A stretch of 64,000 nt of DNA from positions 1,281,001 through 1,345,000 of the forward strand of contig NZ_CP060244.1 of the NCBI RefSeq assembly GCF_014672835.1. Reading direction: 5' to 3'. This DNA is from Entomobacter blattae. Its GTDB lineage: Bacteria > Pseudomonadota > Alphaproteobacteria > Acetobacterales > Acetobacteraceae. The notes beneath the pieces were generated by a model, which ran no database searches, had not been told where the DNA came from, and was given only the letters and a program-made list of their open reading frames with translations. Numbering within the stretch: the first letter of the stretch is position 1; each line of letters opens with the position of its first letter. The translations under genes and the position numbers were made by a program. Shown here in pieces: positions 240-56,026 of this stretch.

Positions 240-2642
240 GTGGCAAGTGAAGAGCTGGTTGACCCCACAGGGGAGGAGTCTCATCCATTTCGTCGTTTTA
301 TGATTCAGATTGCGATTCCGATTATTGGGGTTATTTTGGTTGTTTTGGTGATTGTTGGTGTAAGCCTTCATTCCTATAACTCCACACGGGAAGGGGTGCT
401 GAGGCTTTCGCACACCATTCTTCTCAACCAGCAACAGCGGGTTTCAAAAGAAGTAGCCGACTTTCTAGAGCCCGCCTCAACAGCAGCTTTCATCCTTGAT
501 GATATGATCCACCACAGCCCCATCCGCTATGAAAGGGGCCTGTTCGAGATCTATACCACAAGCCTCTTGCGGAAAATCCCCCAATTTCAGTCCTTCTATC
601 TGGCTGATGAGGATGGCAACTTTGCCATGGTTGAACATATGAGTGAGGGACGCTTGCGTCGCACGCTTCTGCAAAGAGACCCCACCACCCATAAAATGGT
701 CTTCTACCGCCGGATCTATAATCAGGATGGTGTGCTGATCGGCCAAAGCTCCGACCCCAGCAACGGATATGACCCCCGCACACGGCCATGGTATAAAAAT
801 GCCGGCAAGGATGGCATGATCCAATGGTATAAGCCGTATTACCTCAGTTACTTGCACGAGGTGCTGATCGCCTCTGCGGCCTCTTTTCAGGGGGCTGATG
901 GCAAGAAAAAAGTCTTCTCAGTGAACATCACCTTAAGCCAGCTGACCACATTTTTGTCTTCCCTACGTTTTGGTACCCATGGGGATGCCGCCATTATTGA
1001 CAAGGATGGCCACTTTATTGCCGGTAGGCGCCTTTTGGAAGTAGCTCACCAAAAGCAGAAATCCAATGCTGAGTGGGACCCCACCGATACGGTGGTCGAT
1101 AGCCAGCATACCCCGGTGTTAATGCGCGCTTATGATGACTTTCGTGTCAATAGTTATGGGGTCCGTGAGATTCAAAAGGATAATAAGCGTTATATCATGA
1201 TTGCAGCAGCCCTTCCCTCTGATACCCAGGGGTGGATTTTGCTGGTGGTGGTACCTGAAAATGACTTCTCTGACTTTACAGCGTCCGATGGAAAGCAGAA
1301 TTTTCTGTTTTCTCTGGTCATTGTAGGCCTGGCCATTGTCTTGGCAGGCTTGCTTATCCGCCAGGGAAGGCGAACAGAAAAAGCCCGTAAGGATTTTCGC
1401 ACCCAACAATATATCAACCAACAGCAGGGCCAAATTATCGGAGATTTCGCAAGAGACCCAACCTTGCTCAACCCACAAGAAGAAGCTCTTAAACTCACAG
1501 AAGAATTGGCGAGCCTTTCGCATAGCAAGCGCGTGGGTTTATGGCGCTTATTGCGAGATGGCAGCACGTTATTATGCGATGATTTTTACGATGTCCAAGG
1601 CGATACCCACACCGGTGGCTTTGAAATTGCCAATGCGGAAATGTCAGCTTTCTTCAGCCTTATTCAAGAAGGGGGGACAGTGCATATTGAGGATGCGAGC
1701 AGAGATGATCGGGTGCTGCCTTATTACCGGCAATATATGAGCAAGTTCGGCTCTACCTCGCTTGATATTTTTATTGTCCAGGGTGAGGGCTCTGCCTCAG
1801 CTGGGGCGATTGTCCTAGAGGATGCCGAAATTATCCGCAATGTGGCCAATACTGTTGAGCTGGTCGGGGCGATTGTAGCCTTGCGCTTTGCCGTCGCTAA
1901 CCGGGAGATGATAGGCTATACCCGCAAAGTAGCCTCTCAAAGCCAGCCCGTTATACTGGCCCAAAAAGAGCAAAACCTTATTGGCGAGCAGGGGGTTAAT
2001 GGGCAGATGTTTCCTTTGGCCCTGCAGAAGCCTCACCAAGCGGGTTCATCCCAATCTGTGCCTGAGGGGGAGGGTGCTGAACTGGCCAACCAGGGGTTCT
2101 TCCCCTATGTTGCGGTTATGATGCTCAGCTTTTTGGAATTAAACCAAGTTTCTGCCCATAGTGCTGACACTATTGTTGAAACGGTTAAAACCATGAGCCT
2201 GCAGCTTGAAGAGGTGGCTCAGAAATATAACCTTCGGTATATACAGGTGGTTGGCAACCGTATTCTGGCTGCAACGGGGTTTGTCCCTGAAGGGGATTCC
2301 ACAGCCATTATTCGCTTGGCCAATGCAGCTTTGGATATCCGTGATCTTTGTGCAGCCCTGCTGGGCCAGCTCGATATTGACCCTCTCTTTAAAATAGGCA
2401 TGGATATTGGGCCCGCTTATGCAGGCCATTTGGGTCAGGCAGGGCAGGTGTTTAACATATGGGGTGGGGTGGTTAAAGTGGCAGAGCTTATGGCCTTTGA
2501 TGCCCCCGATATTGGCACCATTCAGGTGACGGAAGTGGTTTATGAGAACTTGCGTCATCGGTTCCTGTTCAGGCCTAGAAGCACGTTTTTTGTGCCTGGC
2601 AGTGGCTTGGTGCAAACCTATGTTCTGGCGGGGTTGCGTTAA
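240..2642 (+). CDS. Membrane sensor with dCache, GAF and degenerate nucleotidyl-cyclase domain
   Basis: An 800-residue inner-membrane protein, first gene of the lipid-transport operon. A membrane helix at about 21-44 is followed by a periplasmic region of about 300 residues resembling a double Cache sensor, a second helix at about 355-375, a GAF-like domain at about 400-560, and a C-terminal domain from about 620 with the fold signature of class III cyclases (GPAYAGHLG and IQVTEVVYENL match the usual pattern). The metal-binding aspartates are absent: the usual FADI-type segment reads MLSF, and GDAxxA reads GNRILAA. In the WGDxVNxAxR motif D, N and R are replaced (WGGVVKVAELM). I infer no cyclase activity and a regulatory or binding role. 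The GTG start follows an AAAGAGGAAA ribosome-binding site. Confidence 0.85.
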   Translation: MASEELVDPTGEESHPFRRFMIQIAIPIIGVILVVLVIVGVSLHSYNSTREGVLRLSHTILLNQQQRVSKEVADFLEPASTAAFILDDMIHHSPIRYERGLFEIYTTSLLRKIPQFQSFYLADEDGNFAMVEHMSEGRLRRTLLQRDPTTHKMVFYRRIYNQDGVLIGQSSDPSNGYDPRTRPWYKNAGKDGMIQWYKPYYLSYLHEVLIASAASFQGADGKKKVFSVNITLSQLTTFLSSLRFGTHGDAAIIDKDGHFIAGRRLLEVAHQKQKSNAEWDPTDTVVDSQHTPVLMRAYDDFRVNSYGVREIQKDNKRYIMIAAALPSDTQGWILLVVVPENDFSDFTASDGKQNFLFSLVIVGLAIVLAGLLIRQGRRTEKARKDFRTQQYINQQQGQIIGDFARDPTLLNPQEEALKLTEELASLSHSKRVGLWRLLRDGSTLLCDDFYDVQGDTHTGGFEIANAEMSAFFSLIQEGGTVHIEDASRDDRVLPYYRQYMSKFGSTSLDIFIVQGEGSASAGAIVLEDAEIIRNVANTVELVGAIVALRFAVANREMIGYTRKVASQSQPVILAQKEQNLIGEQGVNGQMFPLALQKPHQAGSSQSVPEGEGAELANQGFFPYVAVMMLSFLELNQVSAHSADTIVETVKTMSLQLEEVAQKYNLRYIQVVGNRILAATGFVPEGDSTAIIRLANAALDIRDLCAALLGQLDIDPLFKIGMDIGPAYAGHLGQAGQVFNIWGGVVKVAELMAFDAPDIGTIQVTEVVYENLRHRFLFRPRSTFFVPGSGLVQTYVLAGLR

Positions 2643-2643
2643 C

Positions 2644-3642
2644 ATGATAGGTTGGGCCCCAAAAAAGATGTGGATTGTGCCAGGTCCTATGCCAAGCCCT
2701 ATGCCAGATCCCTTTATACTGGGCTTCCCAAGGGCTACCTCATGGATTTTAAGCCCTATAGTGGGCGGGTTATGGGGTCGTGAGCAGTGCAACTGTGACC
2801 AGTACAGCAGTGATCAGCGCAGAAGAAGTGACCAGTGGGGCAGCGACCAACACAGTAAGGGGAGTGCTCTTAACCAAGCTCGCTTAGCGAGCAGAGGAGT
2901 TGCGGAAAGCAACCGTGACGAATGTTCTCAATATTCTCGTGGCCATAAAGGGGAGAGAGAAGACTGCCAGCTTCAAGACCCCTCCCAAGACCTCCCTAAA
3001 AAGATAGGCTCCAAAAACACAGGCCCCAAAAAAACACGTCATGAAAAAATGGGCCATGAGAAAACACGCCCTGAGAAAACGGGCCATAAAAAAATGCGCT
3101 ATGAAAAAGAGGCCCATGAAAAAACACGCCAGAATAAGGCCTGGAACAGGGGGCAAAAGTGGGTTTGTTGTTTTCTTGGCAGGATCCTTCTTGTGCGCTG
3201 GGTCCCTCTTGTGGGTATGGTCTCTCTTGTAGGGAATGAAAGTCAAGGAAAGCTTAACCTTTATAAGGGGTTTGAGAACGCAAGGGAAGTTGAAAACGCA
3301 GGAGAAAAGAGAGGCGAGTGTAAAAATAAAAACAAGAATAAGAATAAAAATAAAACCCAGCTTACCCCATGGCCTGTCTTCTTCCCTTCTCTTTTAATTC
3401 AGGGGCGAAAGATTTTGGGGGCACAGGGCAATCCTGCTTTGGTGAGAAGGCATTATTTTACGGTATCTTTTTTATCTTCTTTTTGGTCTTTATCTTTTTC
3501 CTGGGTCTTACCTTCTTTTGGGGGGGGTGCTGTAAGGTCTTTTTATCAAAGGGTTTATTTTAATCAGGGGGTTTATGAGTGGGTTTATGAGTCTGGCCTT
3601 TCAGCTCTTAAAGCGGGTAAAGGAGTTTTCTCATGCGCCTAA
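2644..3642 (+). CDS. Candidate translated low-complexity spacer ORF between sensor and permease
   Basis: An open frame of 332 codons fills the whole gap. Its ATG lies one base after the upstream TAA, and its stop overlaps the permease start by 10 bases. The product is low complexity, with a run of 5-residue repeats of the type HEKTx, and matches no family I recognise. The frame stays open for about 1 kb although the DNA is repetitive and looks like other non-coding spacers here. It may be a real fast-evolving protein, or a spacer kept open so ribosomes reach the permease. I favour the second reading; annotators may call nothing here. Confidence 0.3.
   Translation: MIGWAPKKMWIVPGPMPSPMPDPFILGFPRATSWILSPIVGGLWGREQCNCDQYSSDQRRRSDQWGSDQHSKGSALNQARLASRGVAESNRDECSQYSRGHKGEREDCQLQDPSQDLPKKIGSKNTGPKKTRHEKMGHEKTRPEKTGHKKMRYEKEAHEKTRQNKAWNRGQKWVCCFLGRILLVRWVPLVGMVSLVGNESQGKLNLYKGFENAREVENAGEKRGECKNKNKNKNKNKTQLTPWPVFFPSLLIQGRKILGAQGNPALVRRHYFTVSFLSSFWSLSFSWVLPSFGGGAVRSFYQRVYFNQGVYEWVYESGLSALKAGKGVFSCA
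3010..3129. repeat. 15-bp tandem repeat, about 8 diverged units
   Basis: Units of the form catgaaaaaatgggc recur every 15 bp. Because 15 is a multiple of 3 the array keeps the overlapping 332-codon frame open and reads as 5-residue repeats. Confidence 0.8.
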
Positions 3643-4469
3643 GCTGGGCAGGGTTGTGGTCTTCACGCTGGTTTATTACGTTTTTTCGCTGGTTGGGCTT
3701 TATTGGCCGGGTAACGCGTACGCATGTTCGTTTTTTTCTGGTGCTGGTGGGAACCGCTTGGGGTGTGCTACGCGAAAGTGTGAACCCTTTATCGTGGCGG
3801 CGTACGGTGGTTTATGAGTTTCGGCGCACTTTATCGCAGGCGGTTGGTGGGGGGGTCATGAGCACCCTCTTTACGGCCACCCTGACCGGAATAGCCATTA
3901 TCTCCCAAACCATTTATTGGCTTGGGGTGGCTGGCATGGACCAGATGACAGGCTCGATCCTGGCTACGATCCTTCTGCGTGAGGTTGCCCCCATTTTGGT
4001 GGGAATCATCATGCTGGGCCGAAGCGGCATGCTGGCCGTAGCAGAATGTGGACAGCTAACGCGCACAGGCACAATCCGGCTTTTGGAATCCCAAGGGGTA
4101 GACCCCTTTACGTTTTTTGTTATGTCGCGGGCATTTTCCTTTACCATCAGTAGCTTTACCTTAGGGATTTTGTTTAGTTTTACAGCACTTTTTGTGGGTT
4201 ATATCATTAGCTATTCGGTAGGGACAACATCCAGCTCGGTGTGGTTTTTCTTCAATACTGTCCTTTTATCCATGACAGCGTGGGACTACATTCTTGTGCC
4301 GTTAAAATTTGTGACCATTGGTTTTTTCATTGGCCTTGGCTCCACATTAACCGGGCTGCTCATTCAAAGTAACGAGAGCGTTTCTTCCCTTTTGCCAAGA
4401 GCCTTTGCCAGGGGTATTCTCATGGTTATGTTTATAACGGTGCTGTTTAGCATCAATATTAATTTTTAG
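3633..4469 (+). CDS. MlaE-family lipid ABC transporter permease
   Basis: A 278-residue integral membrane protein of the MlaE/YrbE permease family, the membrane subunit of MCE-type systems that move phospholipid or other hydrophobic molecules between the membranes. The family core is visible: the segment with LREVAPILVGIIMLGRSG at about residues 125-145 is the characteristic coupling region, followed by several hydrophobic helices to the C-terminus. AAAGGAG lies 8 bases upstream of the ATG. It is followed after 21 bases by the ATPase-like gene and then the MCE gene, so permease, ATPase and substrate-binding subunits are adjacent. The substrate cannot be read from sequence. Confidence 0.9.
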   Translation: MRLSWAGLWSSRWFITFFRWLGFIGRVTRTHVRFFLVLVGTAWGVLRESVNPLSWRRTVVYEFRRTLSQAVGGGVMSTLFTATLTGIAIISQTIYWLGVAGMDQMTGSILATILLREVAPILVGIIMLGRSGMLAVAECGQLTRTGTIRLLESQGVDPFTFFVMSRAFSFTISSFTLGILFSFTALFVGYIISYSVGTTSSSVWFFFNTVLLSMTAWDYILVPLKFVTIGFFIGLGSTLTGLLIQSNESVSSLLPRAFARGILMVMFITVLFSININF

Positions 4470-4490
4470 GGTAGGCTTCAGGAGTAGGTT

Positions 4491-5195
4491 ATGAGCGGTA
4501 TTGAACCCCTACTGGAAATGCAAGATGTTCTGCCCTATTTTGAGCAGACCGTCTTACCCCCCGCAATTTATAATTTTAGGGTTTTTGCTGGCCAGTTTAT
4601 TCTTATAGAATGCCGCAATGCTTTTAGAGGGAATGCTTTTGCGGATATGTGCCTGGGTATGGTGGGTTTAAAGACGGGGAGCATTCGGTTTATGGGGTTG
4701 GATTGGGCCAAGCTCCAGCTCCAGCAAAAAAATGCCTTGCGTGGCCGTGTTGGCCGCTATCCCCATATTCAAGGGAACTGGATGAACCTTCTGGGCACCC
4801 ATTTTAACATTATGTTTCAGCAGCTTCATCACACCAAGCGTGAGACAGAAGAAATTGTTCATGAGGCCACAGCCCTCTCACGGCGCTTTGGCTTGCCGGG
4901 CCTTCCCGTTGAAGCCCCAGAAATGTTAAGCGACGTTGATAGGGCTCGTGCAGCCTGTGTCAGGGCGTTTATGGGAAGCCCCTCTCTTGTTCTGTTGGAA
5001 TATTGCCTAGAAGATTATTTGCCGGAATTAAAAGACCCCTTGTTTCGTACCATTAACAATATGCAAAGCACAGGGACGGCGGTGATCAGCTTTACCAGGG
5101 ATCGGTTTTTATGGAAGGATTATAACCGCGAGATATCGGGCTTCTACCGCTTACGGACGGAAGGGCTGGTCGTGTCGAGAGGAGGGATACAGTAA
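4491..5195 (+). CDS. Degenerate ABC ATPase-like subunit of the MCE system
   Basis: A 234-residue protein in the place of MlaF. The layout is that of an ABC nucleotide-binding domain, but each catalytic motif is broken. The P-loop position reads IECRNAFRGNAF, with no GxxGxGKS/T and no lysine. The signature reads LSDVDRARAACVRAF instead of LSGGQ. The Walker B equivalent is LVLLEYCLED, lacking the consecutive Asp-Glu. The H-loop region reads ISFTRDRF with no histidine. The stop TAA shares its last base with the ATG of the MCE gene, indicating translational coupling. I infer a non-hydrolysing scaffold or a partner for an ATPase encoded elsewhere. Confidence 0.75.
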   Translation: MSGIEPLLEMQDVLPYFEQTVLPPAIYNFRVFAGQFILIECRNAFRGNAFADMCLGMVGLKTGSIRFMGLDWAKLQLQQKNALRGRVGRYPHIQGNWMNLLGTHFNIMFQQLHHTKRETEEIVHEATALSRRFGLPGLPVEAPEMLSDVDRARAACVRAFMGSPSLVLLEYCLEDYLPELKDPLFRTINNMQSTGTAVISFTRDRFLWKDYNREISGFYRLRTEGLVVSRGGIQ

Positions 5196-6196
5196 TGTTT
5201 TTATTTAGGCGAACCGATAATGCCCGCCAGCTTGTCCATATTCGCTATACGGATGAATGGGTCGGCGTGCTGGTTTTGATCTGTTTAATTGCCTGTGGGG
5301 CGGCCGTGGTGGAAGCGGGTTTTTTAAGGGATTGGTTAACCCCTTCTGCCAGCTTGCGCATCTTGCTGCCAGAAACAGGGGTGGCTAACCTCAGTGTGGG
5401 CGATGATGTGGAGGTGTTTGGTATTCATGCCGGTACCATCCGCAAGGTTTCGGTTAACCCTTCTGGTGGGCTCTATGCTGTCGCCGAAATAGACCCCCAG
5501 GTGACGATTTATATTCGCCAAGATAGTCAGGCTGTTATTCGCCGGCGTTTTGCCGTGGCAGGGGCCACTTATATTGCCATTAGCCGTGGCTTTGGCCAGG
5601 AGTTTGACTGGCACTACGCCGTTATTAAAGCCAACACCGAGCCCAACCCGATGGATACCATAACCCAGATGTTGCTTCAGGTTCACCAAAAGATCCTGCC
5701 TATTCTCGATAGTGCCCAGCAGCTGGTAGATAACCTTGATAACGTAACCGGCAATCTGCGGACGGGTAAGGGCACTATTGGCCGCCTGCTCAGCAATGAT
5801 GACCTAGCGCGCAAGACAGAAAAAATGGTCACCGCGCTGAATGCTGTGGTCAACAACCTTCAACCACTGGAAGGCAAAGCCGGTGCCGTGTTGGGCAGTG
5901 CACACCAGGTGATGGGCAATACCAACAAAATCCTTACCCATACCGATGTGATCTTGGCGAATTTGCGCCGTATCTCGCATGATTTGGAGCAGGCTTCTCC
6001 GCGGCTGCCTCGATTGGTGAAAAACCTTGATGAAAGCACCAGCAACCTGCCTGCCTTGCTGACCCAAACTCAGTTGATGGTTGACCAGCTTGAAAAGCTC
6101 ACCCGCCAGCTTCGAGGATTGTGGTATTTGGGGGGAGCGAATACCAAGCCGCGCTCTCAAACAGACCGCCTGCCTGCCCATGAGGTTAACCCATGA
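5195..6196 (+). CDS. MCE (MlaD-like) substrate-binding protein
   Basis: A 333-residue protein with one N-terminal membrane helix at about 22-42, an MCE domain at about 50-130 (GxxVxxxGxxxGxV-like stretch DDVEVFGIHAGTIRKV), and a long helical C-terminal region rich in heptad-like Leu/Val and Asn residues. That arrangement matches periplasmic MCE proteins that bind or channel lipids between inner-membrane permease and outer-membrane partners. It starts inside the stop codon of the ATPase-like gene and overlaps the next gene by an ATGA, so the four genes are probably co-translated. Confidence 0.88.
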   Translation: MFLFRRTDNARQLVHIRYTDEWVGVLVLICLIACGAAVVEAGFLRDWLTPSASLRILLPETGVANLSVGDDVEVFGIHAGTIRKVSVNPSGGLYAVAEIDPQVTIYIRQDSQAVIRRRFAVAGATYIAISRGFGQEFDWHYAVIKANTEPNPMDTITQMLLQVHQKILPILDSAQQLVDNLDNVTGNLRTGKGTIGRLLSNDDLARKTEKMVTALNAVVNNLQPLEGKAGAVLGSAHQVMGNTNKILTHTDVILANLRRISHDLEQASPRLPRLVKNLDESTSNLPALLTQTQLMVDQLEKLTRQLRGLWYLGGANTKPRSQTDRLPAHEVNP

Positions 6197-8043
6197 GAGA
6201 GATGTTTAAAATTCTGTTTCCTCTCAAGGCCCTCCGTATAGTGTGGCCCGGCATTGTTCCCACTTGGCTCTTACCCCACAGCAAACCAGAAGGACACTTT
6301 TGGGGTCTTGGCCCAAAAATGGGGCCAGGGCCAGGTTTACGGTCTATCCCTGATCCAAGCTTGCAGCTTAACTCCAGCGCAAGTTTGATAGGAAGGCCAA
6401 GGGTTGGCAGAGATTTTGCTGTAGATTATGGCTTAAACCCACAGCCAGGGTGGGAGGGGAATGATCAGGAGAGGTTGAAAGAAAAGGCTGGGACGCAAAA
6501 ATCTACTCTACAACCCAACAAGAGAACAGACCCAAGGGGAAGGCTAAGCTCAAAAACAAGACTAAGCTTAAGAATGCCACCAAGAATACCCCCGAGAATA
6601 TCTCTGAAAATATCCTCAAGACTAACTCCAGAGGGAAGAGCGGACATATTAGAGAGAGGAACAGAAATAAAAAAAACACTTCTCGGCGCCTTTTCAGGCC
6701 GAGGAGCGATTCTTGTCTCCTTGCAGGAAAGGACACAAGGGCTCCATCAGGGCGTATCCTCTCCAACACCCCTAATGACACACCCAATCACAGTGCCAAT
6801 CTTATCGAGGAGCGATTCTTGTCTCCTTGCAGGAAAGAAAACAAGGGCCCCATCAGAGCGTATTCCCTCTAACACCTCCCATGACATCCTCAATTACAGC
6901 GCTCCAATCACAGCCCCAATGACATATGCTGTAACACAGGCAGTAACACATGCCGTAACATACTTAGGAGCACACCCAGTACCACCTCCTGGAGGAGAGC
7001 CCAGAGAACGAGAGCCTAGAGCACGAGAGCGAGAGGTCAGAGCACAGCAGGCAACCTTGGGAAGGCAAGCAGGTTGGAGGTGGTCAGCATCTTTGGTGGG
7101 TCTTCTATTCTTGGGGTTGGCCGGGGGTGTGGCAGGCTGTGGGAGCGTTGAAGAGGAAGATCCCTACGATCAAAATCTTTATCTTACCATGCGCGCGGGG
7201 GATCAGTCAGCCAGCTTGCAGCGTTATAGCCAGGCAGAACAGCAATATCAGAAAGCCTATTTTGCGGCTGTGGCCAGAAATGATCATGAAGCCATAGAGA
7301 ATGCCGCCTATAATCTGGCATTAACCCAGTTGGCCCAAAGCCAGGCGCAAGCAGCCCTCAAACAGGTTACCCTAGCCCGGCAGGCTTTGTTGGTGCGGGG
7401 GGTTAAAACGGCTTCTGCTCTTGATCTGGTGGCCGCTGCTGCCCAGTTTAGGCTAGACCATTATAGCCAGGCTGCCCTTTTGGCCGAGAGGGCCATGCAG
7501 TCTTCTCAGAGTGATATTGCCGAGCGGGCCGCCTTTATCAGAGGGTTAATTGCTGATGAGCAGGGGGACAACCCAACCTTACGGGCCATGCTTGGGCGTG
7601 TGGCGCCGCAAGATAAGGATGAAAGTGAGCTCAGCTTACCCCAAAGGGCTGATAAGGCCGAATTGCAAGCCCGCTTTTTTCGTAGATCTGGCCAGTTGAA
7701 CGAGGCCCAACAACAGATTACGCTGGCCAGTGGGTTTTATCGCCGTGCGGTGGATTACCGCAGTATGGCCCGTAGCTTGGCTTTTGAAGGAGATTTAACT
7801 CTTCAGCAAGGTCATACCCAACGCGCCGGAGATTTTTACCTTCAGGCGGCCCAGTCACTTCTTTTGTTGAGGGACGATCACGGGGCAGAAAAACTATGGC
7901 GTAAAATTCAGGTTCTGCCGCTTTCGGGTGCATGGAAAAGGCAGGCAGAGAAAAGTATGTCTCGTATTCGTATGGAGTTAATGGATGTTCCGGTCGATAT
8001 TATTAAAAAACGTGCAGCCCGCCAACAGGAGAACCGCTGGTAG
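6193..8043 (+). CDS. TPR-type lipoprotein with long low-complexity N-terminal extension
   Basis: The 616-codon frame starts in the ATGA overlap with the MCE gene. Residues 1 to about 290 are Pro/Arg/Thr-rich, contain repeats and match no domain. Then comes a classic lipoprotein signal (hydrophobic LVGLLFLGLAGGVAGC, cysteine near residue 316), followed by about 300 residues of TPR-like helical pairs. A lipobox so far from the start cannot act as a normal signal peptide, so the functional start may be internal; an in-frame TTG at 7057 would give a normal signal. The extension looks like a repeat expansion inserted between the original start and the signal. Its role in the operon is probably an envelope partner of the MCE system. 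Confidence 0.6.
   Translation: MREMFKILFPLKALRIVWPGIVPTWLLPHSKPEGHFWGLGPKMGPGPGLRSIPDPSLQLNSSASLIGRPRVGRDFAVDYGLNPQPGWEGNDQERLKEKAGTQKSTLQPNKRTDPRGRLSSKTRLSLRMPPRIPPRISLKISSRLTPEGRADILERGTEIKKTLLGAFSGRGAILVSLQERTQGLHQGVSSPTPLMTHPITVPILSRSDSCLLAGKKTRAPSERIPSNTSHDILNYSAPITAPMTYAVTQAVTHAVTYLGAHPVPPPGGEPREREPRAREREVRAQQATLGRQAGWRWSASLVGLLFLGLAGGVAGCGSVEEEDPYDQNLYLTMRAGDQSASLQRYSQAEQQYQKAYFAAVARNDHEAIENAAYNLALTQLAQSQAQAALKQVTLARQALLVRGVKTASALDLVAAAAQFRLDHYSQAALLAERAMQSSQSDIAERAAFIRGLIADEQGDNPTLRAMLGRVAPQDKDESELSLPQRADKAELQARFFRRSGQLNEAQQQITLASGFYRRAVDYRSMARSLAFEGDLTLQQGHTQRAGDFYLQAAQSLLLLRDDHGAEKLWRKIQVLPLSGAWKRQAEKSMSRIRMELMDVPVDIIKKRAARQQENRW
6701..6872. repeat. Direct repeat of about 65 bp, offset 106 bp
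   Basis: Copies at about 6701-6765 and 6807-6872 share gaggagcgattcttgtctcc and continue with high similarity. They lie in the stop-free extension upstream of the lipoprotein signal, showing that the extension grew at least partly by duplication. Confidence 0.8.
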
Positions 8044-8149
8044 TGCTTTGCGCAATCCAATAGCGGCTTTGGTGGCAACCTTTGTAAAAAAACTTGTTGT
8101 CGGGAACGTCCTGCACAGGCAGAAAGAGGGAGGTGACTTCTGGTTATCG

Positions 8150-8265
8150 GCTGACGTATTTGGTAGATTCTCTAGCAGTTTCTCTGACAGATTCTTTGGC
8201 CGCTTTTCTGGCCGCTTTTCTGGCCGCTTTTCTGGCTGGTTATCTGGTCGCTTCTCTGGTCAGTT
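8150..8265. repeat. 12-bp-unit tandem repeat (ttctggccgctt)
   Basis: Three near-perfect units followed by diverged ones. The unit is a multiple of 3, and the frame from 7985 into the small lipoprotein stays open across it, giving RFSGRFSGRFSG-type repeats. Confidence 0.75.
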
Positions 8266-8377
8266 ATTTGGCGGAAGCGCTGCCATTGCACCAGGTGATC
8301 CGAAAAAAGCCCTGGTTATCCGCAACCCAACCGCTTTCATAGGGGCTATCCTGTGCGGGGCAAAACAGACCAGGCGG

Positions 8378-8659
8378 ATGTGGGCTTGCCTGGCGTTGAT
8401 CGGTCTGGTTGGGTGTTCCTCAACGGGAGATTATGGCCGCAATCGTCCTAAGGATACTGTCTGGCGCAAAAAAACAGATCCCGGCACTCAGTATGACCCC
8501 TATTACCATTCTTCTATCAAGCAGGGCAGTCTCTCACAAGTGCATTCTGGGGTCGATACTCCTGCAGAAATCGATCCCCATGCCCACCATAATCCCAAGC
8601 AGATTTTTAGATATTCCCCCATTTTGGCAGAGCCGAACAGAAATCCCTATACTGAGTAA
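8378..8659 (+). CDS. Small lipoprotein, last gene of the MCE operon
   Basis: The product from this ATG is 93 residues with a short signal (MWACLALIGLVGCSS) whose LVGC is a good lipobox; the mature part is hydrophilic, rich in His, Pro and Tyr, and of no family I recognise. The same frame is open back to 7985, inside the previous gene, so annotators may choose a much earlier start; the upstream part is 12-bp repeats and would bury the signal peptide. An outer-membrane accessory to the MCE system is a guess from position only. Confidence 0.55.
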   Translation: MWACLALIGLVGCSSTGDYGRNRPKDTVWRKKTDPGTQYDPYYHSSIKQGSLSQVHSGVDTPAEIDPHAHHNPKQIFRYSPILAEPNRNPYTE

Positions 8660-8710
8660 TAGGCCCCTGAGTAATATGTTTCTGAGTAATATGTTTCTGA
8701 GTAATACTCC
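8651..8710. repeat. 15-bp tandem repeat, 4 units
   Basis: Units like tctgagtaatatgtt at the 3' end of the lipoprotein gene and just beyond its stop codon. Confidence 0.85.
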
Positions 8711-9195
8711 CTTGGGAAAGGTGGTCGGCCGCTTATTTTGTACTCATAAGGACTCTCCTTAGTCTATTGGGTGAGGCAAGTAGTCCAGGCATTTTCTTAT
8801 ATCCTTCATGGAAAAACGGACTTGAAGAAGACCATGCTGGTGATGTGGACAAGGCCTGACGTCTTCGAAAAGGTTGGAGTAGAATAGGGGAAAGATGGTC
8901 ATGAAGTCCCCTACTGGCGCCTCTCGGAAAGCCGCGTTTGAGGAAGGAAGGTGATGTCGGTAATGCGGAAAAGGGCCTGATGGTTCAGAGGAGATAGGAG
9001 TAAAATAGGGAGGGGAAGACAGTGGTGAGGCACCCCCTACTAACATCTCCCGAAAGGGGGTTAGCCGCCGGTGAGCGAACCTTCGGGGCGGTACAGACTA
9101 CTAAGCATCTCACAAAAGGGGGGTAGCCTTTTCTGTAATAGAAGGACTTCTATAGCGGTTGGTTGAGAGTGTGGGGCTAAGCAGAGCGTGAGAGC
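8711..9195. other. Non-coding spacer with a diverged 120-bp tandem duplication
   Basis: No gene is supported. Segments at about 8818-8937 and 8938-9060 align throughout (ggagtagaataggg versus ggagtaaaataggg; gtcccctactg versus caccccctactaac; ctctcggaaag versus tctcccgaaaggg), and a third partial copy follows near 9098-9120. It adjoins an rRNA relic. Confidence 0.6.
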
Positions 9196-9380
9196 TGGCT
9201 TGAACCCACCATCGCGCAGCTTCCGTTATTTTTTGGAGGTGATTGGCCCCAGTCAAACTGCCCACCATCCACCATGCAGGGTTCTGATTCAGGGTAACGG
9301 GATGCGGTTAGGCATTAGAAAAATTGGTTAGACATTAGAAAATTTTAGAGTGGTATTTCAAGGCTGGTTCCACAGAAAGA
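9196..9380 (-). pseudogene. Decayed 23S rRNA fragment
   Basis: On the plus strand this stretch reads as the complement of the 23S rRNA segment near the E. coli 2180-2290 region. Diagnostic words in correct order are cttccgtta then ccccagtcaaactgccc, then ggttagacat, then ggtatttcaaggctggttcc and acagaa. Bacterial 23S genes have the near-identical complement CCCCAGTCAAACTNCCC followed by GGTATTTCAAGGNTGGCTCC. Insertions between the words show decay. No other part of an rRNA operon is present in the window, so this is an isolated relic. Confidence 0.75.
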
Positions 9381-9401
9381 GGATTGTGGGACTGTTTCTG
9401 T

Positions 9402-10856
9402 TTAAAGCTCCTTAAGGGTGGATTGCTTGCTCACAAAGGCTGCATTGTCTTTCTTTAAGCCCGTAATGGTGACAGCCAGATGGTTGTTTTTCATTTTGGT
9501 GACAATGGTATCCAAGGCGCCGGTGGCAGTAACATCCCAGAAATGGGCATCACTGAGGTCTATCTTCACGTTTTTAACGTTATCGCGAATTTTAAAGGAA
9601 TTTTCGAATAAGGTGGAAGAGGCAAAAAAGATTTGCCCCTTTACCGTGTAAATCCTGGTGGTAGCATCTTCTGACAGGGTACTGCTGACTTCGAGTAAGC
9701 GGCTGAGCTGCCAGGCAAAGAAAATACCGTTGAGCATGACCCCCACAATCACTCCAATGGCCAGGTCTTTGGTGGCGACCACCACGATGACTGTTGCCAG
9801 CATGCACAGGGTAGAGGTTTTAGGATGGAAGGTTATTTCCCTTAAGGAAGACCATGAAAATGTGCTGATAGAGACCATGATCATAATTGCCACCAGCACC
9901 GCTACTGGAACCTGGGCCACAAAGGGGCGTAAAACATCCATCAGCAATAATAAAAAAGCCCCGGCCATAAAGGTCGAAAGCCGCCCCACACCCCCATAGC
10001 GTAAATTGCCCACGGTTTGGCCAATCATGCCGCAACCGGCAATACCACCAAAAAAGCCCACGGCCATGTTGGCAATCCCCAGGCCCGTACATTCCCTACG
10101 CTTGTTACTATGGGTTTCTGTCAGGTCATCAACGACAGTAGCCGTCATTAAGGATTCCAAAGCCCCCACTAAAGCCATCGCAGCGGCATAGGGCACAATA
10201 ATCTCCAGGCTTTCGAATGTTAAAGGAATATGAGGCCAAACCAGCCCGGGAAACCCAGTGGGTAACGCCCCCAGATCGGCTACTGTGTGGAGGGGCATGG
10301 GATAAACCCAGTAGAGAGCCGTCAGCGCTATAATGGCAATCAATGGTGAAGGGATAAGAGTTGTCATAAAGGGAGCCAGATAAATAATGGCCAGGCCCAA
10401 GGCGGTTATCAGATAGGTTTGCCAGTTTGCCCCCAGAAGATGGGGAAGCTGGGCTGAAAAAATAAGAATGGCCAAAGCATTGACAAAGCCCGTACGAACA
10501 GGGCGTGAGACATACTGCATCAGCACATGTAGGCGCAACAGCCCTATCAGCACTTGAAAGAGGCCAGCAAGGATGGTTGCAGCAAACAGATAGTCAATTC
10601 CATGGCCCCGCACCAAGGCGGCAGCCACCAATGCAACAGAACCCGCAGCCCCTGAAACCATGCCCGCTCGCCCACCGGTAAAGGCAATAACAATGCTGAT
10701 GATAAAGGTGGCGTAGAGCCCTACTTCCGGGGCTACACCGGCCACAAAGGAAAAGGCGATGACCTCGGGGATGAGGGCAAAGGTGCTGACCATTCCGGCT
10801 AGAATATCTTGTCGGATATTGCCAAGCCATTCCTGGCGATAATGCGTAGGGGTCAT
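9402..10856 (-). CDS. SulP-family anion transporter with STAS domain
   Basis: A 484-residue transporter from the internal ATG, which has GGAG five bases upstream; the frame is open further to 10937, but that N-terminus is a low-complexity His/Thr/Phe repeat. The SulP transporter domain occupies about 1-385 (QDILAGMVSTFALIPEVIAF start, internal GGIAGCGMIGQT region), followed by a C-terminal STAS domain at about 400-484 (VKIDLSDAHFWDVTATGALD). Family members move sulfate, bicarbonate or dicarboxylates with proton or sodium; the substrate is not readable here. A 23S rRNA relic lies just downstream, and a 10-copy octamer repeat lies 125 bp upstream of the start. Confidence 0.9.
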   Translation of the reverse strand: MTPTHYRQEWLGNIRQDILAGMVSTFALIPEVIAFSFVAGVAPEVGLYATFIISIVIAFTGGRAGMVSGAAGSVALVAAALVRGHGIDYLFAATILAGLFQVLIGLLRLHVLMQYVSRPVRTGFVNALAILIFSAQLPHLLGANWQTYLITALGLAIIYLAPFMTTLIPSPLIAIIALTALYWVYPMPLHTVADLGALPTGFPGLVWPHIPLTFESLEIIVPYAAAMALVGALESLMTATVVDDLTETHSNKRRECTGLGIANMAVGFFGGIAGCGMIGQTVGNLRYGGVGRLSTFMAGAFLLLLMDVLRPFVAQVPVAVLVAIMIMVSISTFSWSSLREITFHPKTSTLCMLATVIVVVATKDLAIGVIVGVMLNGIFFAWQLSRLLEVSSTLSEDATTRIYTVKGQIFFASSTLFENSFKIRDNVKNVKIDLSDAHFWDVTATGALDTIVTKMKNNHLAVTITGLKKDNAAFVSKQSTLKEL

Positions 10857-11384
10857 TATAGCTCCTGTGATAAAGGGGGTGGTGATGAAGGGGTAATGAA
10901 GGGTGAGTGTGGTAAAAAAGGGGTTGTGGGTCGTCATTTGGTCTAAAGGGGGTGTTTCAGCTGTGATACTGCAATATTCTTTCTATTGTTCTATTGTTCT
11001 ATTGTTCTATTGTTCTATTGTTCTATTGTTCTATTGTTCTATTGTTCTATTGTTCTATTGTTCAACCTATCGTTCAGCGCAAGGGGCCCCTTTTGAATGG
11101 GCTCGTTGGGTTAACCTGTTTTGGGTTGGTCTGTCTTAGGTTAGTCTGTCTTGGGGGATCAGTCTGTCTTGGATTAATCTGTCAAAGATAGCTTGTTGTT
11201 TGTACCCGCTATTTGTGAGAATCATCCTAAACGGGTAAGAGAGATCGGGGTAAGGAGATATCCCTGAACGTTCAAGGAACGTTTAAGAAAGGGGCTTAGT
11301 CTTAGGGAACGAGACAAAAAAGATCGCTGAAAACCTCAGATATCAGACCCCAGATATCAGACATCAAACCTCAAAATTCAGGCG
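10857..11384. other. Spacer upstream of sulP: repeats, promoter region presumed
   Basis: No gene supported. It holds the octamer array at 10981-11060, a diverged 15-bp repeat (tctgtcttaggttag type) at about 11128-11183, and a repeat of cagatatcagac near 11336-11365. The sulP promoter must lie here, but no convincing -35/-10 pair stands out. Confidence 0.5.
10981..11060. repeat. Perfect octamer microsatellite (ttctattg) x10
   Basis: Ten uninterrupted copies of an 8-bp unit. Eight is not a multiple of 3, and the array sits in the presumed promoter/leader of sulP, the classic context for slipped-strand length variation. Confidence 0.95.
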
Positions 11385-28565: not shown

Positions 28566-28878
28566 GTTTTGCCTTTCTAATATGCACCACGCATTTAAGA
28601 AATTGAACAGGGCTTTATCCCGTTTTATTGAATAAGGCTTTAAAGCCCCGTTTTGCAGAATATTTTGCCTTATCAGCTTTTGCCCATTATGAAAGGGATT
28701 GCCCTCTTATAAGAATGGTGAAGGAAATAAGAACGTTGAAGGAAAAACCCCTATAGCGGTATAAAAAGAAAAGCTAGAAGAGGTTTGATAAGATTTGATA
28801 AGAAAAGAAACATCTAGCGGGAAACATTCAGCAGGGGCTGGTTTTATTCTTGCCCACTATATTTTTAAGGAGCTCGAT
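28566..28878. other. Leader region of the ilv genes
   Basis: Carries the self-complementary ggctttaaagcc at about 28633-28644 followed by ccccgtttt, possibly a weak terminator for miaA. No leader peptide with a run of branched-chain codons was found. AAGGAG lies just before the ilvB ATG. Confidence 0.4.
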
Positions 28879-38885: not shown

Positions 38886-39150
38886 GGCAAATCTTCCTTA
38901 ACCAAATATTCCTTAAAAAGAGCCCATTAGAAAACTACCAGACTGTGAAAAGGTTTTGCGTCTTTGTCTGTGATCTGTAGCAGAAAAGCCTAAAGCAAAA
39001 AAACCTAAATCAAAAAAAACTGGGAGAGTGAGATTGGGGGGAGCCCTAAGGGTATGTAATGGGTAAGACATTTAACCTCCAGTAAAAAACCAGGGTGTTT
39101 TGTCAGGAAAGAATGCCTGGCCATAGGGTTGAAGACTGCCTGGCCATGTT

Positions 39151-39253
39151 CCATCCCTTCGCCGGCATGACCCGGATCAGGTTCAAAGGGTTTGGTTGGT
39201 ACCATCTCAGCCTCTGGAATTGTCTTTTTGAAAAGAGCAAGAGGCACCCCTGG
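39151..39253 (-). promoter_or_regulatory. TPP riboswitch (THI element)
   Basis: On the minus strand the core words appear in order: AGGGGTGCC, then GGCTGAGATGG, then ACCCTTTGAACCTGATCCGG, then GTCATGCCGGCGAAGGGATG. These are the conserved pyrimidine- and pyrophosphate-sensing arms. It sits about 265 nt upstream of thiO and should repress thiOSGEC when thiamine pyrophosphate is abundant. The expression platform in 38886-39150 was not resolved. Confidence 0.97.
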
Positions 39254-39736
39254 AAAGATCTTACAGTAACGTGAATATTGGCAAAGGACAATAGGAAACA
39301 AAATAGAAATTTGCCCTTACAGGGAGAAAAGAATATATTCATAAAGGGTTTGTGATGCCATGGCCCTTCTTGCCAAGACCTGCTTCCCTTGAAGCTCCTT
39401 TCCACAAAGCGTGGTGAAAGCTTGACGATAAGCGTGACGAAGGTTTGACAAGGGGAGGGGATGAATAAAGGAAGATCTTAGCGGATAAAGGGTTTTGGTT
39501 GCATAACGCAAGTGCTCTATTAAGTGCTCTGGCAGACAAGTGCTTTATTAGGTCCTTTGGTAAAAAGTTCTCTGGCAAAGAGTTCTTATAAGGGGTAGGG
39601 TGTAAGGCCATTGTCTGGCTAAAAGGCAAAAGTAGGTTATAGGGTTGGCAGCCTACAGGGGTTAAAAACAGCTTGCCCTATTGGGGGGTATGTTGGGATA
39701 TTCTGGTTTGATATTCTAGCGAGAGAGGAGAGCTTT
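39254..39736. other. Divergent spacer upstream of the thi operon
   Basis: Must hold the thi promoter. Diverged repeats of gacgaaggtttgac and of aagtgctctattaag/ctctggcaaagagtt occupy about 39410-39590. No gene recognised. Confidence 0.45.
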
Positions 39737-55936: not shown

Positions 55937-56026
55937 GGAGAGATGGCCGAGCGGCTTAAGGCGCACGCTTGGAAAGCGTGTGTACGTGCAAGCGTACCGT
56001 GGGTTCGAATCCCACTCTCTCCGCCA
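55937..56026 (+). tRNA. tRNA-Ser (anticodon GGA)
   Basis: A 90-nt serine tRNA. Acceptor GGAGAGA pairs with TCTCTCC; the anticodon loop is cttggaaag giving GGA; a long variable arm has the stem gtacg/cgtac; the T arm reads gtgggttcgaatcccac; CCA is encoded. It borders the AT-rich island, a common position for integration. Confidence 0.97.

Follow-up and report, generated by a model that had tools for sequence, protein, structure and literature searches.

Studies of translational coupling at ATGA and TAATG overlaps (PMC10666635, PMC6728339, PMC12548453) describe stop/start overlaps of −4 and −1 nucleotides (nt) as the commonest coupled arrangement. In reporter work, reinitiation coupling is almost abolished by an untranslated spacing of about 20 nt (PMC10666635), and a review puts the reach of weaker coupling at about 40 nt (PMC12548453). 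At an ATGA junction, an insert that is not translated should therefore break the coupling to the gene downstream. The Mla/MCE lipid-transport operon of Entomobacter blattae (Acetobacteraceae) descends from such an arrangement, and its ATPase-mce and mce-lipoprotein overlaps survive, but at two of its junctions open fillers of 0.9 kb now separate the start that would be coupled from the conserved portion of the following gene. The operon lies in a window of 64,000 nt, positions 1,281,001 to 1,345,000 of NZ_CP060244.1, the single contig of 2,701,842 bp. These two spacers, and a shorter third, probably belong to the translated sequence of the downstream genes, as leaders or N-terminal coding stretches that lengthened through local tandem duplication under a frame constraint at ATGA-coupled junctions.

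As in other Mla/MCE operons of the family, MlaE, an ATPase-like gene, MlaD and a lipoprotein follow each other in the usual order; the differences are the enlarged junctions and an additional small lipoprotein at the operon end. All genes lie on the plus strand. At the head, in relatives as here, stands a Cache-domain/guanylate cyclase-type gene (240-2642; Pfam Guanylate_cyc E 3.6e-16, dCache_1 E 1.7e-11), which ends in a TAA at 2640-2642 and is the upstream partner at the first junction. It is followed by the MlaE permease (3633-4469; Pfam MlaE E 3.3e-31, aligned with relatives), a diverged ATPase-like gene (4491-5195), the MlaD/MCE-domain gene (5195-6196; Pfam MlaD E 4.4e-9, its junctions compared with relatives), the native part of a TPR-like lipoprotein (about 7057-8043), homologous to the post-mce lipoprotein gene of relatives, and the small lipoprotein (MWACLALIGLVGCSS..., about 8378-8659), single copy in the genome. 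A Pfam search gave no match for the ATPase-like gene, though it occupies the place where an MlaF-type ATPase is expected and its position between mlaE and mce is kept in relatives. The label "TPR-like" is our own reading of the sequence and has no Pfam match; the signal peptide of this lipoprotein, GRQAGWRWSASLVGLLFLGLAGGVAGC, was read by eye. Both Pfam and synteny put the MlaE and MlaD/MCE genes together in one operon and, with membership deduced from synteny, the six genes appear to form a real operon.

Spacer 1 (2643-3632, plus strand) is a repeat-built filler with a single open frame. The open stretch runs from 2542 to 3642, and its usable start, ATG2644, lies 1 nt past the cyclase stop (TAACATG, 2640-2646), giving an open reading frame (ORF) of 332 codons at 2644-3642. 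This ORF is out of frame with MlaE and ends at a TAA (3640-3642) in a 10-nt overlap with the MlaE start ATG3633. Inside its end, a Shine-Dalgarno-like AAAGGAG followed after 7 nt by ATG (3619-3635, plus strand) is, as read from the letters, the probable present start of MlaE. Spacer 2 (6193-7056, plus strand; stop counts on 6197-7056) reaches from a retained ATGA start at 6193, which overlaps the MCE stop, to the lipoprotein signal peptide, and its ORF (6193-8043) is in frame with the lipoprotein. It contains an imperfect tandem duplication (6700-6909, plus strand), stop-free in both frames used, and a strong internal Shine-Dalgarno sequence, GGAGGTGG, ahead of TTG7093. Spacer 3 (8044-8377, plus strand), built with 12- and 24-nt repeats, precedes the small lipoprotein in an in-frame ORF (7985-8659). 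The open frame is thus continuous with a conserved gene in spacers 2 and 3 and not in spacer 1, and stop/start overlap or near contact is seen at ATGA 6193 (mce-lipoprotein), TAATG 5195 (ATPase-mce) and the TAACATG between cyclase and filler ORF. The ORF map and stop counts bear out the initial annotation of this DNA, which had reported these three open frames, their coordinates and their overlaps with the neighbouring genes. Past spacer 3, a 15-nt repeat (CTGAGTAATATGTTT, 3.7 copies, 8652-8706) starts from the small lipoprotein's stop codon, as though the end of the gene had been copied, and an imperfect duplication of about 120-150 nt can be seen by eye 3' of the operon (8815-9055).

Could such frames be open by chance? 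Stops per sense-strand frame number 31/0/10 in spacer 1, 20/7/0 in spacer 2 and 6/0/3 in spacer 3, and on the minus strand 15/12/9, 16/4/11 and 3/1/4. Dinucleotide shuffling left some plus-strand frame fully open in none of 2000 runs for spacer 1, none of 2000 for spacer 2 and a fraction of 0.064 for spacer 3. A stricter null, in which repeat arrays were kept whole and blocks permuted, gave an open frame in 1, 3 and 959 of 5000 runs, respectively. Spacers 1 and 2 are therefore real signals beyond chance, as had been proposed for a 1-kb stop-free stretch, but spacer 3 is not significant alone and is suggestive only. The accompanying claim, that spacers between separate transcription units are full of stops, holds within the window.

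Comparison of 80 Acetobacteraceae loci shows where the fillers sit. Nearly all operon junctions in these relatives are stop/start overlaps of 1-4 nt without spacers, the usual spacing being −1 nt at the ATPase-mce junction and −4 nt (ATGA) at both cyclase-mlaE and mce-lipoprotein; on its upstream side the E. blattae MCE gene retains the ancestral −1 overlap (TAATG), and on its downstream side ATGA. At the mce-lipoprotein junction, relatives of low GC content (38-40%) likewise have ATGA, and their lipoprotein signal peptide is short. Two Asaia loci (L098 and L114) have anomalous cyclase-mlaE distances of 994 and 680 nt, which may be expansions, frameshifts or alignment errors. Since the relatives' junctions are such short overlaps, spacers 1 and 2 lie downstream of an ancestral coupled start codon. 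The interval from cyclase stop to conserved MlaE is coding and variable, with 15-98 residues in 78 loci against an equivalent of 359 in the window, and that from MCE stop to lipobox cysteine has 5-36 residues in 75 loci against 316. Spacers 1 and 2 thus occupy a coding stretch at the N-terminus that was already of variable length, immediately after the coupled start. This position, and the continuity of spacers 2 and 3 with the downstream genes, contradict the earlier description of the inserts as plain non-coding spacers. The small lipoprotein has no counterpart near the operon in the 80 loci, so that spacer 3 is placed by analogy.

The growth of the fillers also appears to have followed the reading frame. 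The set examined is small and partly chosen for openness, and comprises the three spacers and the fillers at three other loci, L020, L021 and L136, whose genes, by reading of their sequences, encode envelope or exported proteins. At L020 an outer-membrane efflux protein gene is joined to an HlyD-type membrane-fusion protein gene by a chain that reads CCATGA, a 17-codon ORF, CTATGA, an ORF of about 130 codons built from PENKA repeats, GGATGA and the fusion-protein gene; this looks like an independent case, of a bridging form with an ATGA-linked chain of ORFs. L021 (TonB-dependent receptor) and L136 (aspartyl protease) show a fused form, in which extensions rich in repeats precede or surround segments that resemble signal peptides. 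In these fillers all 17 tandem arrays have periods divisible by 3, which supports growth of the repeats in register with the frame, and the only large non-triplet duplication, the 106-nt offset at 6700-6909, is compensated to 108 by a 2-nt indel. Triplet periods account for 54 of 187 arrays (29%) in divergent or convergent gaps, 94 of 109 in coding cores and 28 of 52 in other co-oriented sense stretches. Because the fillers had been picked for openness, a matched control was used, namely open stretches of at least 300 nt in divergent or convergent gaps, where 18 of 51 periods are triplet (Fisher 1.3e-6). These figures suggest that the filler regions were read in the open frame while the repeats grew. 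Triplet-unit expansion of coding repeats is known in disordered N-termini and signal-peptide regions, and the fillers share its triplet periods, low complexity and N-terminal place; several relatives have smaller tandem repeats of 12 or 15 nt at the corresponding sites, Swaminathania at both junctions. They differ in exceeding those of every relative ten-fold in length, in adjoining many unrelated repeat families and, for spacer 1, in being out of frame with the next gene.

These observations can be assembled into a sequence of events in which we infer translation, reinitiation, removal with the signal peptide and the order of the steps. In the ancestor, ATGA overlaps would have joined cyclase to mlaE and mce to the lipoprotein gene, so that ribosomes reached the downstream start codon through termination-reinitiation. 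Repeats may then have arisen just 3' of the coupled start, within the already length-variable N-terminal stretch. An insert that stayed open behind the ATGA would merely lengthen the downstream N-terminus, which seems enough to account for spacer 2 and, by analogy, for spacer 3, whereas a stop or an uncompensated frameshift would sever the downstream gene from its coupled start; purifying selection against such severing would have eliminated closed frames and given an advantage to repeat units divisible by 3. In spacer 2, and by analogy in spacer 3, the filler would still be fused in frame before a lipoprotein signal peptide, and signal peptidase might cut it off the lipoprotein. Spacer 1 would have begun as such an N-terminal extension, until a frameshift somewhere in 3576-3633 split it, leaving a bridging ORF that now ends in the overlap with a new Shine-Dalgarno/ATG start of MlaE. 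We also considered that a one-base sequencing or assembly indel at the MlaE junction would look like a frameshift; without it spacer 1 would be fused to MlaE. A more general proposition can be offered tentatively, and is rather doubtful: that strictly coupled (ATGA) junctions tolerate growth only as translated filler, a "ribosome bridge" in which a repeat-built leader or an ATGA-linked chain of ORFs hands ribosomes on and in some cases is lost when the signal peptide is cleaved off, ordinary operon spacers of the genome being free to gain stops.

Several points weigh against reading the spacers as frame-constrained N-terminal coding sequence. The fillers score negative on the organism's own coding statistics, and in the lipoprotein ORF the score turns positive only at about 7093-7111, at the native lipoprotein start. 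TTG7057 would give a normal signal peptide and, together with the internal Shine-Dalgarno, would allow the filler of spacer 2 to be a leader outside the protein product; a 280-residue extension ahead of a signal peptide would be unusual in any case. Spacer 3 has neither an ancestral comparison nor significance of its own, and one junction elsewhere in the genome, at L013, had the ancestral −4 overlap and has expanded with stops.

Does a general rule nonetheless keep ribosomes moving across the spacers of this genome? The initial annotation had proposed so, in the form of non-coding insertions inside operons kept open in any frame so that ribosome cover blocks Rho termination (polarity). In a sample of 1.2 Mb of stretches, or 45% of the genome, with a GC content of about 45%, stop density shows no useful difference between co-oriented and other gaps. 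Genes were called with a home-made 3-periodic order-4 model and the remaining hits were read by eye; a first dicodon caller had missed many real genes, giving false open gaps, and was replaced, and most long "open" co-oriented gaps were genes that the caller had missed. Comparing 560 co-oriented pairs with 1.62 Mb of Swaminathania gave 107 syntenic pairs, 64 of them tight there (start at most 30 nt from the upstream stop). Five of the 64 have expanded by at least 300 nt: spacers 1 and 2 and L020, which are open, and L023 10397-10949 and L011 14513-14965 (minus strand, reverse-complement coordinates), which are closed. Closed expansions outside this definition were found at L030 5780-6101 (distance 0, with the relative's start not identified) and at 28566-28878 of the window (+32 in the relative), and the L013 junction (2356-2614, minus strand) is a smaller one of 251 nt. 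The expanded ancestral junctions thus number three open and five closed and, with only one of six open outside the MCE operon and no useful difference in stop density, the general depletion of stops in intra-operon spacers that had been predicted is unsupported; on this 45% of the genome, the outcome agrees in part with what the annotation had itself named as a refutation. What survives of the proposal is that the open fillers leave ribosomes a way through to the next gene. Ancestral −4 junctions are open in three of four cases and the others in none of four, a weak pattern with too few cases to conclude from. A bottleneck-jump statistic for ribosome paths (p 0.010, 0.005 and 0.025 for spacers 1, 2 and L020) was not used because it is biased, the shuffled stretch including native N-terminal coding sequence.

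Protection from Rho would suit spacer 1 and L020, where bridging ORFs are out of frame with the next gene, and C-rich, G-poor stretches in spacers 1 and 2 could load Rho if untranslated, in addition to frames that are open beyond chance. The five closed junctions, with stops in every frame, and the stop density of co-oriented gaps argue the other way, and the in-frame spacers 2 and 3 need no polarity. A C-minus-G scan for Rho-loading potential separates open from closed spacers only weakly. As the explanation of the fillers it is unlikely; polarity could add to selection but is unnecessary, since spacers 1 and 2 begin at a coupled start and spacers 2 and 3 share the downstream frame, which makes ordinary selection for downstream translation enough. 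A little less probable again is that the fillers are untranslated and neutral, open because a stop-free triplet unit happened to be repeated, with true starts at ATG3633, TTG7057 or TTG7093, and ATG8378. The Shine-Dalgarno sequences, good both at ATG3633 and before TTG7093, fit this, as does the compatibility of spacer 3 with chance, but several repeat families within one spacer share one open frame, permuting whole arrays almost never reproduces spacers 1 and 2, and the uniformly triplet periods compare with about one third in matched open stretches outside operons.

If the fillers are read, do they encode proteins or domains with their own function? The ORFs are long and stop-free, and that of spacer 1 has its own start and stop, but none has a Pfam match, a search of 100 family genomes gave no homologue of the spacer-1 protein, and complexity is low and codon usage non-native; a function of their own is very improbable. 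In-frame insertion into genes is known for Rickettsia palindromic elements (PMC10969869), which resemble the fillers in adding stop-free sequence in frame with a host gene and so raise the question of mobile elements with a built-in open frame. The E. blattae fillers differ in being single copy, non-palindromic and, it seems, locally made: spacers 1 and 2 each occur once in the whole genome, share no sequence with each other and have no terminal inverted repeats, which leaves a mobile origin scarcely credible.

Repeats are widespread in the sampled stretches (L009-L145), where coding density is low, with about 67-68% in called coding cores, and where gaps hold many short tandem arrays, period 15 being commonest in co-oriented and divergent gaps. 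Directly 3' of the TonB-dependent receptor gene at L021, a co-oriented gap (9105-10958) contains a near-perfect 15-nt array that repeats HKRRT over more than 600 nt in one frame. A partly open co-oriented gap at L036 (17084-17935), which precedes a lipoprotein gene, has perfect 33-nt repeats reading SHVGEPCRGAM; it was set aside because the open stretch ends short of the next gene. A convergent gap (L033, 4277-5399) carries a long PKPKAQS tandem array, and two gaps of equal length (L037, 18544-19566; L129, 11743-12765) share their longest open stretch and its translation and represent a repeated element. Within the window, a perfect 8-nt array, TTCTATTG, runs for 10.4 copies at 10981-11063, and Rfam identifies a TPP riboswitch (39136-39261, minus strand) and a tRNA gene (55937-56023, plus strand).

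For gene finding the fillers carry a warning, as their ORFs resemble proteins of 330-620 residues but probably consist of filler, either standing by itself or joined to shorter conserved genes. Together, these results look like extra coding sequence trapped at gene starts and not like a general rule that moves ribosomes through non-coding gaps. If translated, the fillers would be natural insertions into gene pairs whose overlap nearly all of the 80 relatives keep, and the closed junctions of the genome would serve as their controls. Such insertions would imply that the loss of tight spacing is tolerable only when the inserted sequence is itself read, and would let translational coupling be tested directly in a non-model organism.

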